Shown: positions 36,864 through 41,338 of the stretch, in pieces | How the letters are laid out: each line of letters begins with the position of its first letter | How positions within the stretch are numbered: the first letter of the stretch is position 1 | Source: Methylobacter sp. | Lineage (GTDB): Bacteria; Pseudomonadota; Gammaproteobacteria; Methylococcales; Methylomonadaceae | Direction of reading: 5' to 3' | DNA: 64,000 bases | Assembly: GCA_030679035.1 (NCBI GenBank) | Contig: JAUXTH010000042.1 | Span: forward strand, 1-64,000 | Notes under the pieces: model-generated | Seen by the model: the letters and a program-made list of their open reading frames with translations, nothing else | What the model was told of the DNA's origin: nothing | Database searches by the model: none | Made by a program: the position numbers and the translations under genes

Positions 36864-37502
36864 TCAATGTGATGGGCGTATTGTAAGAGGGCGAAGTCTT
36901 CTCGGCAGAACATTGATAACTTCAGCATCCGGCAGATTCTCAAAGACCTGCTCTACCGTCTTGTTCTCGGTCAATGCTTTTACCACCAGCGGCAACGGCT
37001 CAGCCAATATTTGCGGAAAGTCTCTTTCCAAAGCATTTATAATCGGGAAAGCCAGTTTTTCTATAGGCGGGCAAAAATCGGCAGATACACCCGGCTTATT
37101 GCCTCGGGCGTCAATGCGATACCAGCCATGCTGCTCAAGATAAACCGCATTCAATCCATGAAGACAATAAGGCGGACCATCGGTTTCAACCATCAAGCGT
37201 TGATAGCAAAGCGCCGCCGGAATGGCATTGGCTCTTAACAGCGCCGCTAACAAATGACTCTTGGCATAACAGTAACCCGTGCCGTGAATTAACACGTCAG
37301 AGGCTTTACAGGTGACGGGATTCATCCGGTAATCCCAGCTGTGTTTAATGGCATCGCGGACGAATTCAAAACAACGTTTCGCTACAGATTCATCGCTAAC
37401 ACAGCCCTCAGCGAGTTCCGCCGCCTTGGCAACCACCAAAGGATGATTCCAATCGATATACTCGCTGCTGTCGAGATAGTGTTCCATACCTGCTTTCATC
37501 AT
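36864..37502 (-). CDS. Transglutaminase-like cysteine peptidase domain protein
   Basis: A 212-residue transglutaminase-like protein. The triad is apparent: Cys in HGTGYCYAKSHLLAALLRA, His in YCLHGLNAVYL and Asp in WYRIDARGNKPG. Such cytosolic bacterial proteins probably hydrolyse or transfer on peptides or amides. I chose the ATG at 37502 because its ATGA overlaps the TGA of the GFA gene. It is in the same operon as the GFA and SnoaL-like genes. Confidence 0.85.
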   Translation of the reverse strand: MMKAGMEHYLDSSEYIDWNHPLVVAKAAELAEGCVSDESVAKRCFEFVRDAIKHSWDYRMNPVTCKASDVLIHGTGYCYAKSHLLAALLRANAIPAALCYQRLMVETDGPPYCLHGLNAVYLEQHGWYRIDARGNKPGVSADFCPPIEKLAFPIINALERDFPQILAEPLPLVVKALTENKTVEQVFENLPDAEVINVLPRRLRPLTIRPSH

Positions 37503-37894
37503 CGCCCCGACTGCCATTCCGGATAACAAGGAATATCGTCATATTCAAGCCACGGAACATCGTGCGATGTCCAGATATGCGCTTGCGGAGTAATGTTTGG
37601 ATCTTCATCCAGCGTTGCCACCCGAACAATAACATGAGGCTGGTTCACCCGCTCAGCTACCAGATGTGAACCGCACACCGAACAGAAATAGCGCAGCTTC
37701 CCTGGAGAAGACTCGAAGAATGAAAGTTTTTCTTCACCTTTCAGCCAGCGAAAATGCTCACGCATTACACCGGCAGTTGAGGCGAACGCAGCCGCATGCG
37801 CTTTTTGGCAAGTCCGGCAATGGCAGTGAGCGATAGGCATATCAATGCTGTCGATTTCGTACTCAATGGCTCCGCATAAACAACTACCCCTCAT
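37499..37894 (-). CDS. GFA-family zinc protein
   Basis: A 131-residue GFA/CENP-V-domain protein. The zinc cysteines are in RGSCLCGAIEYEI, HCHCRTCQKAH and YFCSVCGSHLVAE. The family is named after glutathione-dependent formaldehyde-activating enzyme, but most members act on other, unknown, glutathione adducts. The ATG at 37894 begins two bases after the stop of the preceding gene. A second GFA gene is at 45565. Confidence 0.88.
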   Translation of the reverse strand: MRGSCLCGAIEYEIDSIDMPIAHCHCRTCQKAHAAAFASTAGVMREHFRWLKGEEKLSFFESSPGKLRYFCSVCGSHLVAERVNQPHVIVRVATLDEDPNITPQAHIWTSHDVPWLEYDDIPCYPEWQSGR

Positions 37895-37895
37895 T

Positions 37896-38510
37896 TTATT
37901 TCCGACCATTTAGATACCTATGTGAAATCTCCAGTTTTTCAATAAAGTCTTCACCAATATCAGGAAAGCCATCTGTAAAAACATCACGATCTATCTTCTT
38001 AAACAGATAATATTGAGGTTGGCGATATTTAGGGCCGACGTATACGGATTTAAACGGGATATATGATGCGAATTGACCATTTAATTCATCAATATCGATC
38101 TTGTTATACTGATCCGATGTAATATCTATAAGAATTTCACCTACCTCTAACCAATAATGACTGATTTCATCAAGACCTTTCCAATTCTTTGCACGTCCAG
38201 AAACTCCATGAATAATCAAATTGGGGTACTTAAATATCAAATGGTAAGCCACAAGCATTGAGGATAACTTGCAATTCATTATTGGGAAATCTTCTGTTAT
38301 TAAAGGAATATTTTTCTTGTCTGACTGTTCCAGTCTATTGCGTACCCAAACAGCTTCTTGTTCTAAATTAAGAGTTTCTTCTTTCATAACCAAATCGGAT
38401 TCATTAGTCCGGCCGGTTACACCCGACTCAGGGCGATATGCGCTATTGGCGAGTTGCGCTATTGTCTCGGCATCAGGATTGCGTGCCGCGCGGAATTTAT
38501 CAATATCCAT
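37896..38510 (-). CDS. Chimeric ORF: GNAT N-terminal fragment fused to a Cys-His-Asp protein
   Basis: A 204-residue protein. Residues 10-40 (DAETIAQLANSAYRPESGVT, then ESDL) are the recognisable first helix of a GNAT acetyltransferase; the rest of that fold is missing. From about 47 on, another protein begins: LEQEAVWVRNRLEQ, NCKLSSMLVAYHLI (C80), EISHYWLEVGEILIDIT (H118, D129), which looks like a papain- or transglutaminase-like triad. Met42 may be the start of the original second gene. It overlaps the ketopantoate reductase gene by 11 bases. The fusion probably arose by recombination. Confidence 0.65.
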   Translation of the reverse strand: MDIDKFRAARNPDAETIAQLANSAYRPESGVTGRTNESDLVMKEETLNLEQEAVWVRNRLEQSDKKNIPLITEDFPIMNCKLSSMLVAYHLIFKYPNLIIHGVSGRAKNWKGLDEISHYWLEVGEILIDITSDQYNKIDIDELNGQFASYIPFKSVYVGPKYRQPQYYLFKKIDRDVFTDGFPDIGEDFIEKLEISHRYLNGRK

Positions 38511-39432
38511 GTCTCTGCCTAGTCAATTCGTATGCCTGAAGATGGGAATATGCGAGCTTAAGTAACGGAACACTAATACCGCTCGCGTCCGCCCGGCGAA
38601 CCATATCTCCAACAGTGTGCTCCGCTTCTATAGGGCCGCCGCGTTCAATGTCGCGTAGCATTGACGCCGTAGAACTTGATCCTTGCTCAGTGAGCTGATT
38701 ACGATAGGTCAACAGTTGATCAGGATTGGGGATACGATGATTAGCCGTAGCCACTCTTTCGCATTCATCAAGCAGCCCGGTAATAAACGACTCTCCGGCC
38801 ACGGTACTCAATATTTCACCGATATTGGCTCGCATGGTGCAAGTCGCGCCAGCCATCGTGCAGAGAAAGATAAATTTATTCCACATATCCTGTTCGATAT
38901 GACTGGAGAGGGAAAAATCGATGGATGTAGATGACAGTAACTCCGCCAGTGAAGAAACTTGCTTTGAAAATGACGTACAGCGGGAGCCTATAATCAAACG
39001 ATTAATGCTGTTTAAATGTTTAATCTCACCTGAAGGAGTCAAGGTAACGGCTAGATGGGCGAGGCCGCCCAATACCCGTTCACGGCCAAATAGGGCGTCT
39101 AACGTATCCAAATGGGCAACACCGTTTAGTAGCGGCAGAATTAAGCTATTGCCCCCTATCGCAGGTAAAATTGACGCTAGTGCTGAGTCAAAATCATAAG
39201 CTTTGCAAGTAATAATAATGAGATCGAAAGCCTCGCATGGGGTTTCTATGGATGTAACGACCCGTGGCGTAACATGAATATCGCCCAGTGTGCTTGATAC
39301 ATAAAGTCCGTTGGCTATGAGGTTCTGCGCACGGGCAGGACGCACCAAGTAGGTGACATCGCCCCCCGCACGTTGAATCTGCGCTCCGAAATACCCGCCG
39401 ATTCCGCCGGCTCCCAAGATAAGTATCCGCAT
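38500..39432 (-). CDS. 2-dehydropantoate 2-reductase family protein
   Basis: A 310-residue ApbA/PanE-family NADPH oxidoreductase. It would reduce ketopantoate to pantoate (coenzyme A synthesis) or a related 2-oxo acid. The Rossmann motif ILGAGGIGGYFGAQIQRAGG is at the N-terminus and the catalytic Lys is in IIITCKAYD. NKFIFLCTMAGATCTM marks the C-terminal helical domain. The start at 39432 is the second of two close ATGs. Its C-terminus runs eleven bases into the chimeric gene. Accessory context makes a non-pantothenate substrate possible. Confidence 0.85.
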   Translation of the reverse strand: MRILILGAGGIGGYFGAQIQRAGGDVTYLVRPARAQNLIANGLYVSSTLGDIHVTPRVVTSIETPCEAFDLIIITCKAYDFDSALASILPAIGGNSLILPLLNGVAHLDTLDALFGRERVLGGLAHLAVTLTPSGEIKHLNSINRLIIGSRCTSFSKQVSSLAELLSSTSIDFSLSSHIEQDMWNKFIFLCTMAGATCTMRANIGEILSTVAGESFITGLLDECERVATANHRIPNPDQLLTYRNQLTEQGSSSTASMLRDIERGGPIEAEHTVGDMVRRADASGISVPLLKLAYSHLQAYELTRQRHGY

Positions 39433-39480
39433 TACCATGCTCCTTGTTCGCGAATATTGGTGGAGATCGCTAACATACTG

Positions 39481-39916
39481 TTACACCGCTTCCGCTTGAT
39501 TCTTTAACGCCTGATTCATCGCGATAAACCCTGACTTTGTTTCACCCTCAAGCTTAGACTTGGCAAGCCCGACCAAAATGCCGGAAAACTTTTCGCCGTG
39601 AATCAAGCGCACTCGACCCGACGAGACCGGCTCGATTTTGAAGTAATGCTCGCCATCAAAAACTCTAGGCAACAGGAAATGTCCGAGCCAACGCAATTCA
39701 TGATTCGGCAGCGCGACAAGTACGGTAGGACGGAAGGTCATGCCTTTGCTGCCAGTCGGTTGAATGAGTGCGGTTAGTCGCTCACCGGTCTTGGCTACGC
39801 CTTTTATGGATCGAATAAACGGATTCCACTGGGGATACGCGACGAAGTCAATGAGTAATCGACCAGACCCGCTCCGGTGTTGCGGTTATTTCAATTTCAG
39901 TGTTAATTTCGTGCAT
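39481..39916 (-). pseudogene. Frameshifted SRPBCC-family protein
   Basis: The ATG at 39916 begins HEINTEIEITATPERVWSI and soon meets a stop. The next frame continues FVAYPQWNPFIRSIKG and KTGERLTALIQPTGSKG into MTFRPTVLVALPNHELRWLG and YFKIEPVSSGRVRLIHGEKF, ending at 39481. Together these make a normal polyketide-cyclase-like (START/SRPBCC) protein of about 145 residues. One indel near 39850 disrupts it. The last 86 codons alone lack the first strands of the fold. Confidence 0.8.
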
Positions 39917-39943
39917 AGTAAACGCCCTATTCCGGTTTTATAT

Positions 39944-41338
39944 TTATGGAAAGATCGCCCTGTCCCGGGCATTTACGAAAGCAGCTACGGAACGCTCCAC
40001 ATCAGCCACTGTCGTTGCCCATGAGCATACACTAATTCTAATGACCGGTTCGCCATTCCAAACTGATCCGCCACACCAGCATTCTCCTGATTTTTGGATA
40101 TTTTCCAATGTTACTTTTGTGTGTTCCGGGCTGTCGCAAGCAACAAGAACTTGATTGAAGACCACATCATTCAGAATACGAAAACCCTCGGCACGTAAAT
40201 TTTCGGCAAACCGTTTGGCGTGGTCGCAAAGACGATCAACCAGTTCTTCCACGCCGTCTTTGCCCAGGAATTTCAGCGTTGCCCAAAGCTCAACCACGCG
40301 CCCACGCCGCGACATCTCCGGCGTGTAATGCATACCGTCACGTTGTTCGCCGTGGGGAATATATGCAGCCGTTGCCTGCATGGCTGCGACCAGAATCTCG
40401 CTATGCTTGCATAGGATAATGCCCGAATCATATGGAGCATTAAGTGTTTTATGGGCATCGACAGCCCACGAGTCGGCTTTATCGATGCCTTGCGTAAGGA
40501 TTTTTTTAGTGCGCGATCCTGCCGCCCAAAGACCGAAAGCGCCGTCAACGTGAACCCAGGCATTCACGCGCCGAGCGAGATCGCATATCTCATCAATCGG
40601 ATCAAACGCCCCTGTATTGACGTTTCCCGCTTGGGTTATCACCAGACAACTTTCAGGCATTTCGTCGACAATCATGCGTCCTTGGTTATCAGTAGGCACA
40701 ATTTCAACCCGCGACTTGCCAAGACCTAACAGAGCGAGTGCTTTAAATATTGTGGCGTGAGCCTGCCCACCCAAAACAACGCGAAGTTTGGGCGCATCAA
40801 ACAACCCGTCTACGTTCACATCCCAACCCTGACGATTTAACAATTCGTTGCGTCCGGCTGCAAGCCCACACAAATTTGCAGTTGAAGAGCCGGTAACAAA
40901 ACCTGCCCCGGTGCCTGCGGGTAATCCCAGCAAATCAACCAGCCATTTTTCGCAGGTAGCTTCTAGCTGGGAGCTGATAGGCGACATAACATATAAGGCG
41001 GTATTTTGATCCCACACATCCGACAGCCATTTGGCGGCTAAAGCAGAGGGAACCGAGCTTCCGGTCACGAAGCCAAAGTACCTTCCACCCGTTTGGGTGA
41101 CGGTTGCCGGTGAACCGTATTCATGCAACATTCGAAGCAGTTCAGTTGGATTAATGGACATTGCGGGGAAAGGTTCGTCAAAAACAACCAGATTTTTAAT
41201 GGCCTCGTCGTTTGGAAAAACGTTCCGCTCGTGTACGCCATCCATGTAGGCATACGTGTAGGATTTTGCCTGCTCGAATAGTTCCTTGCCAAGGATTTGC
41301 GAGTACATTTCTTGCTGAATATCTATTTTTTTTATCAT
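39944..41338 (-). CDS. Pyridoxal-dependent amino-acid decarboxylase (group II)
   Basis: A 464-residue group II PLP decarboxylase-like enzyme related to aromatic amino acid, glutamate and aspartate decarboxylases. The Schiff-base lysine is K297 in WAVDAHKTLNAPYDSG. VHVDGAFGLW gives the PLP-stacking and Asp residues, and GFVTGSSTANLCGLAAGRN is the phosphate loop. The substrate is not decided by sequence. It lies about 80 bases from the amidotransferase-like gene, both on the minus strand. Confidence 0.88.
   Translation of the reverse strand: MIKKIDIQQEMYSQILGKELFEQAKSYTYAYMDGVHERNVFPNDEAIKNLVVFDEPFPAMSINPTELLRMLHEYGSPATVTQTGGRYFGFVTGSSVPSALAAKWLSDVWDQNTALYVMSPISSQLEATCEKWLVDLLGLPAGTGAGFVTGSSTANLCGLAAGRNELLNRQGWDVNVDGLFDAPKLRVVLGGQAHATIFKALALLGLGKSRVEIVPTDNQGRMIVDEMPESCLVITQAGNVNTGAFDPIDEICDLARRVNAWVHVDGAFGLWAAGSRTKKILTQGIDKADSWAVDAHKTLNAPYDSGIILCKHSEILVAAMQATAAYIPHGEQRDGMHYTPEMSRRGRVVELWATLKFLGKDGVEELVDRLCDHAKRFAENLRAEGFRILNDVVFNQVLVACDSPEHTKVTLENIQKSGECWCGGSVWNGEPVIRISVCSWATTVADVERSVAAFVNARDRAIFP

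Follow-up and report, generated by a model that had tools for sequence, protein, structure and literature searches.

Cassettes can land outside integrons, and their insertion by the integron integrase IntI at secondary sites was reportedly described by Francia in 1993, by Recchia and Hall in 1995 and by Loot et al. in 2024. According to PMC2426708, IntI recombines attC with secondary sites, and a cassette placed in this manner is hard to excise; attG sites are mentioned, citing Loot et al. 2024, in PMC12901181 and PMC12444791. The locus studied here shares several traits with secondary-site insertions as these three sources portray them: a cassette-type gene stands outside an array, it is joined at a G^TT, and the host carries intact intI. 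It differs in that both attC and the 3' part of the target are missing and that target and cassette ORF form one continuous frame. Fused gene cassettes, as described in PMC4670013, are similar in that attC is lost and an ORF is fused to an adjacent ORF, yet there two array cassettes fuse, whereas here a cassette-type ORF is joined to a gene of a chromosomal operon. In the literature searched, which included few subscription journals, no report was recognised of this chimera or of an in-frame fusion between a cassette and a gene of a chromosomal operon, and little was found on the fate of cassettes that have landed outside integrons.

The window, i.e., the whole stretch of 64,000 nucleotides analysed, contains the ORF at the coordinates given in a preliminary description (37896-38510), to which the minus strand can be added; the product has 204 residues. 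It is close to certain that this ORF is a real chimera, in which the 5' end of a GNAT gene runs on into a thiol-enzyme gene of the cassette type. Of an ordinary gene for an acetyltransferase, the rear three quarters are swapped, in frame, for a foreign gene, and the chimera is no acetyltransferase. The features of the locus are as follows, G150 (locus L028) being the genome of another genus of the same family that serves as reference.

37896-38510, minus strand: chimeric ORF, 204 residues
38389-38510, minus strand: 5' stub of the GNAT gene (residues 1-40 and two bases of codon 41), from alignment to the intact GNAT of G150
38386-38391, minus strand: left breakpoint, gatttgG^TTatgaaag (G at 38390), where homology to intact GNAT ends and the cassette-like G^TTATG begins
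37903-38388, minus strand: low-GC insert of 486 bp with a YunG/phrog_26734-like thiol-enzyme domain
38271-38273, minus strand: codon of C80, invariant in 24/24 aligned members
38157-38159, minus strand: codon of H118, invariant in 24/24
38124-38126, minus strand: codon of D129, invariant in 24/24
37892-37908, minus strand: right breakpoint with stop and start, TCGGAAATAAAATG; the TAA stop lies within the former GFA leader
37499-37894, minus strand: GFA-family gene, native downstream neighbour, 84.3% identical in DNA to G150
38500-39438, minus strand: ApbA/PanE-type ketopantoate reductase gene, native upstream neighbour

The frame is open across all 204 codons, with neither a stop nor a frameshift. 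Its ATG overlaps the stop codon of ApbA (ATGGATATTGA), and its TAA stands one base ahead of the GFA start (TAA-A-ATG); like the strand, both of these go beyond the preliminary description.

The GNAT stub and the intact operon of a related genus

In G150 (L028/L073), the genes for ApbA, an intact GNAT of 176 residues and GFA occur in the same order as in the window, and the GNAT ATG overlaps the ApbA stop, as does that of the chimera. This operon likely represents an earlier state of the one in the window. In BLAST comparisons of the two, the left DNA alignment covers ApbA and the gene before it and runs to window position 38389 (78.6% over 1577 columns), while the right one starts at 37902 (84.3% over 408); between 38389 and 37902 BLAST reported no alignment, and the 486 bp of the window there stand opposite 428 bp of GNAT gene and leader in G150. 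Homology ends on the left within gatttgG^TT and restarts on the right at the GFA start. At the level of sequence, this comparison shows the GNAT stretch to be replaced by the insert relative to G150.

The preliminary description had read the N-terminus as the first part of a GNAT fold that then breaks off, and the protein comparisons agree: the chimera matches the intact GNAT of G150 at 62% over residues 2-43, the highest match to the start of the fold in the first 40-odd residues, and that of another genome (G039) at 57% over residues 1-42. Homology to the intact gene stops at 38389, and the chimera lacks what would follow in a GNAT, including the motif that binds acetyl-CoA. At E <= 1 it has no match to any GNAT model, and a search of the window for the remainder of the GNAT gene did not detect it (best E 4.5). 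When the first 46 residues of the chimera were used as query against 221 genomes of the family, 33 had matches at E <= 0.001, the window's own genome counted. A different GNAT, 42% identical to that of G150, is located on another contig of the host genome.

The fused gene itself is present in one of 23 genomes of the genus; a second match, in G021, concerns the GNAT part only. No fused homologue appeared in the sampled genomes (family to phylum sets and plasmids, with one genome per species), and the frames read in the 23 other aligned members of the domain family, of which the longest were checked by eye, have no GNAT N-terminus. A fused family common to several taxa, the alternative raised against the chimera in the preliminary description, was accordingly rejected for these genomes.

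Several further arrangements were seen around these operons. The gene upstream of ApbA (39481-39964, minus strand), which we take to be SRPBCC-like, is frameshifted in the window compared to an open copy in G150, and the operon may thus be partly decaying. G150 carries a second GFA-like gene after the first (L028 250-657, minus strand), which has no counterpart at the same place in the window. In G186 (L030 728-1339, plus strand), the sequence in frame ahead of a related GNAT (CYLCEAIKYKVDS) resembles, by eye, a GFA N-terminus; this is perhaps another rearranged GFA/GNAT junction. Among plasmid records, the best DNA match to the neighbourhood is a Methylomonas plasmid; it falls in the transglutaminase gene, covers 22% of the query at 72.8% identity and makes a methanotroph of the Methylococcales the likely host.

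The low-GC insert and its thiol-enzyme-like domain

The GC content drops to 0.34 in positions 37896-38390, and the step is sharp: the stub has 0.53, GFA 0.51 and ApbA 0.49. The trend is also reflected at third codon positions, where GC3 is 0.29 in the insert and 0.47-0.48 around it. The insert looks foreign. Relatives of its domain are rare: with the window's own genome included each time, they were found in 1 of 201 genomes of the family, 2 of 301 of the order and 1 of 369 of the class, by profile in 5 of 398 of the phylum, and by a wide profile in 5 of 311 of the order. Matches to the domain occur in 2 of 72,556 plasmid records, and a narrower profile retrieved 26 loci in viral contigs. Phage records, E. 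coli genomes, PADLOC and a first viral scan returned no match. The weak matches L068, L111, L112 and L113, together with one in Proteus mirabilis (H35), lie outside the study set.

The closest aligned member is 34% identical to the insert, and in a search of the whole host genome the chimera matches itself alone at E <= 0.001, so that neither the aligned members nor the own genome yielded a close copy that could be its donor. On the strength of the latter result, an origin from the neighbouring transglutaminase gene was rejected. The preliminary description had drawn attention to this gene as a neighbour, and as a source or relative of the insert it does not hold up; the DNA of G150 homologous to it also lies by the intact GNAT operon.

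Alignment of the domain comprised 24 members, and C80, H118, W120, D129, T131, D133 and Q134 are invariant in all of them, the chimera having kept all seven. The Cys, His and Asp named in the preliminary description as resembling a papain/transglutaminase-like site are at the positions given there. Unfused homologues, which it had proposed to look for, have their first residue at the position matching Met42 or close to it, and at the other end the domain reaches about as far as the C-termini of the relatives L025 and L026.

The closest described families are YunG (PF24585) and phrog_26734. The former matches the chimera at 14.6 bits (E 0.038), below the curated cut-off of 27 bits, and 23 of the 24 aligned members at E <= 1 (best 3e-9); the latter matches the chimera over residues 51-156 (E 0.00058) and 20 of the 24 members at E <= 0.01. 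The chimera has in common with both families the conserved Cys, His-x-Trp and D-[IL]-T-x-D-Q-[FY] of the aligned members, but it falls under the Pfam cut-off and carries the GNAT stub; the listed function of phrog_26734 is "unknown". Another family, phrog_12251, matches 4 of the 24 members. Transglut_core (PF01841) matches three of them at E <= 1 (best 0.00016), and does not match the chimera at this threshold.

In the AlphaFold model computed from 24 rows (an earlier model from 3 sequences, with a pLDDT of 48.6, was set aside), the chimera has a mean pLDDT of 83.3 and a pTM of 0.79. Averaged in blocks of ten, pLDDT is 52-65 across residues 1-40; from residue 41 onwards there are 17 blocks, and in 13 of them it is at least 85. 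Papain/transglutaminase-like folds have a Cys at the start of a helix, and His and Asp on successive strands; in the predicted model C80 is at a helix start, H118 within a strand and D129 at the end of the strand that follows, an arrangement in common with the fold matches protein-glutaminase, LapG, NTAQ1, vasohibins, SseI and the PMT catalytic domains. The top VIA-align rows are SseI (Z 7.4), LapG (7.0), PMT (6.5), protein-glutaminase (6.3) and NTAQ1 (5.5), all below Z 8, and the absence of a row above Z 8 excludes no fold. Identity is 6-13% in the ten best rows, which together with the low Z sets the chimera apart from these enzymes; nearly all of the 50 rows shown are presumably papain/transglutaminase-type enzymes. 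Foldseek against the PDB gave no match at E <= 0.001, and neither did BFVD at E 0.001, where the two best hits (E 0.0023 and 0.0052; Foldseek probability 0.97 and 1.00) are uncharacterised proteins. By sequence, a first search of solved structures found none, and the two matches of a later one (E 0.43 and 0.8) were taken as chance.

At Z values below 8, the model suggests a papain/transglutaminase-like fold and nothing further, which, with the invariant Cys, His and Asp, agrees with the likeness seen in the preliminary description. Residues from about 43 to 204 probably fold and work as a papain/transglutaminase-like thiol enzyme with C80 as nucleophile, although its catalytic activity is read from these likenesses. 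The putative enzyme may be an amidase, a deamidase or a protease. A deamidase is our first guess, because several of the fold matches, as we assume, act on glutamine. That the chimera is a working enzyme we consider an evenly poised matter.

Integron cassettes and the proposed route to the fusion

The relatives of the domain found in plasmids and genomes provide the link to integrons. In Vibrio sp. HA2012 (L025) the gene is situated in an array of repeated attC-like sites and is preceded by gggcG^TTATG, and in L076 (G905) it lies between two attC-like sites, in a stretch with 7-8 copies, and is preceded by gcggcG^TTATG. The relative in L005 (G220) adjoins an integron integrase scoring above the TIGR02249 cut-off (438 bits vs 265). 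A 62-base hairpin resembling attC is situated at the stop codon of this relative, and the G^TT point that precedes it reads G^TTATAC. A decayed attC follows the relative on a Vibrio parahaemolyticus plasmid (L003), while none was seen near that of Rheinheimera A13L (L026) when the locus was read. In all, four of the eight plasmid or genome relatives adjoin attC, one of them beside intI and one with the site decayed; L065, L067 and L069 were outside the attC scan. The long Vibrio-type sites were recognised by their repetition in arrays, and that of L003 by likeness to them; they fold no better than shuffles (z -0.56, 0.23 and -0.20). The 61-62 base sites of L005 and of the host do fold better (z -2.79, -2.99 and -2.91).

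The host genome codes for two intact integron integrases (495 and 497 bits; cut-off 265). A 61-base attC occurs twice beside one intI, the two copies being 98% identical, and strong matches to it are confined to contig C203, where the host integron (L070 3134-4130, G000:C203) holds at least two cassettes with these sites. Integrase-like matches at E <= 1e-20 are present in 14 of the 23 genomes of the genus, and intI alone is thus no special mark of this host.

The left break of the chimera, gatttgG^TTATG, is at a G^TT of the cassette type. By manual count, 20 nt separate G^TT from the conserved Asn/Asp-Leu codons in the window, compared to 25 in L025, 26 in L076 and 30 in L005 (Asp-Leu in the last). 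Since GTT lies within 1 base of a random position in 5.4% of the local sequence, the boundary match taken alone is of modest weight. Together, the G^TT boundary, the similar distance to the core and the cassette relatives would constitute fair support for a cassette boundary, and the source of the insert is, as far as these likenesses indicate, an integron-cassette-type gene. The 3' end of the chimera is without attC: two stretches there form no hairpin above shuffles. The insert is hence not a complete cassette, so that a deletion step has to be assumed and the IntI step is deduced.

The best explanation, which we hold with slightly more belief than doubt, is the insertion of a cassette at a secondary site in the GNAT gene, followed by deletion of attC and of the GNAT remainder. 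A mobile gene of the integron-cassette type would have inserted at the G^TT inside codon 41 of the GNAT gene of an ApbA-GNAT-GFA operon, most likely through one of the two integron integrases of the host, with a secondary (non-attI) site as target. The attC of the cassette and what remained of the GNAT gene, up to the GFA leader, would have been deleted later. The outcome would be one in-frame gene with a GNAT start, the whole cassette domain as its body and a stop from the GFA leader. IntI is somewhat favoured as the agent of insertion; both its part and the order of the events are deduced from the end product. If this account is correct, one locus permits a base-by-base comparison of the states before and after, including the target gene, the cassette-type boundary, the loss of attC and the in-frame fusion in a native operon.

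A different origin, by illegitimate recombination or by natural transformation with a linear fragment that ended near the cassette boundary by chance, would require no integrase, and we consider it possible yet doubtful. It would produce both junctions in one event, with no separate deletion, and would agree with the missing attC, with the frequency of GTT in the local sequence and with a cassette setting established for four of the eight plasmid or genome relatives. The position of the left break at a cassette-type point, with a distance to the core near that of the cassette relatives, and the intact IntI of the host speak for the integrase instead. An assembly artefact that joined two places is very improbable: the junction occurs in a single draft assembly of 216 contigs, but the frame is kept at both junctions and the contig is syntenic with G150 on both sides.

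Predicted expression of the chimera, and the wider domain family

Since its start overlaps the ApbA stop, the chimera is probably coupled to ApbA in translation, and as a single base separates its own stop from the start of GFA, translation of GFA may now occur by re-initiation. In the window, a simple scan for matches of 4-6 bases found no Shine-Dalgarno ahead of Met1, Met42 or the start of GFA, and the same scan found one before both GNAT (GAGG) and GFA (GGAG) in G150. The missing motif at Met1 and Met42 counts against the best explanation, under which the chimera would be expressed.

Translation could also begin at Met42, in which case the stub would remain untranslated and the product would be an ordinary unfused cassette protein. 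The start points of the unfused relatives, near Met42, and the poor modelling of the stub (mean pLDDT of 52-65 in blocks of ten) are in line with this, but Met42 has no more of a Shine-Dalgarno than Met1, and the overlap of Met1 with the ApbA stop is common to the intact GNAT of G150; we regard such a start as unlikely. The preliminary description had left the choice between recombination debris and a new protein. A random join that merely happens to stay open, yields no useful protein and is bound to decay would suit a fused gene found in a single genome of the genus, a destroyed GNAT and an operon that may be decaying, given the frameshift upstream of ApbA. Yet 204 codons have remained free of stops and frameshifts, seven invariant residues are kept, and the domain extends about to the C-termini of L025/L026, with the stop one base before the GFA start. 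The term debris looks too weak for a locus in which a complete domain stays open across the two junctions and the source appears to be an integron-cassette-type gene, and we deem that outcome improbable; the possibility of a new protein is the part of the choice that stands.

The fullest form of the integrase account, in which an integron integrase made a new chromosomal gene by one insertion and one deletion and the enzyme works under host control with attC lost, is put forward tentatively, as the less probable case. The captured gene could then no longer be excised. If the enzyme is active, the locus would illustrate a route by which genes leave the mobile pool and become permanent, and, if the account is true, ordinary operons would gain newborn genes from the integron pool via a captured start codon and translational coupling.

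The survey also points to an uncharacterised thiol-enzyme family common to integrons and viral contigs. Of the 26 viral loci, 21 entered the alignment (A6), with start codons chosen by the analyst; L099 was left out for the placement of its domain, and L088, L089, L092 and L094 as copies or near-copies. Ten neighbours from six loci were scanned around the viral-contig members. Two of these members (L084 3965-4453 and L089 3950-4456) are divergent beside genes for terminase small subunits and appear cargo-like. A further family member (L100 3974-4384) is near a 947-residue LRR-Roc-COR protein, and in the viral contig of L099 (2798-6859) the YunG-like domain resides inside a very long open frame.
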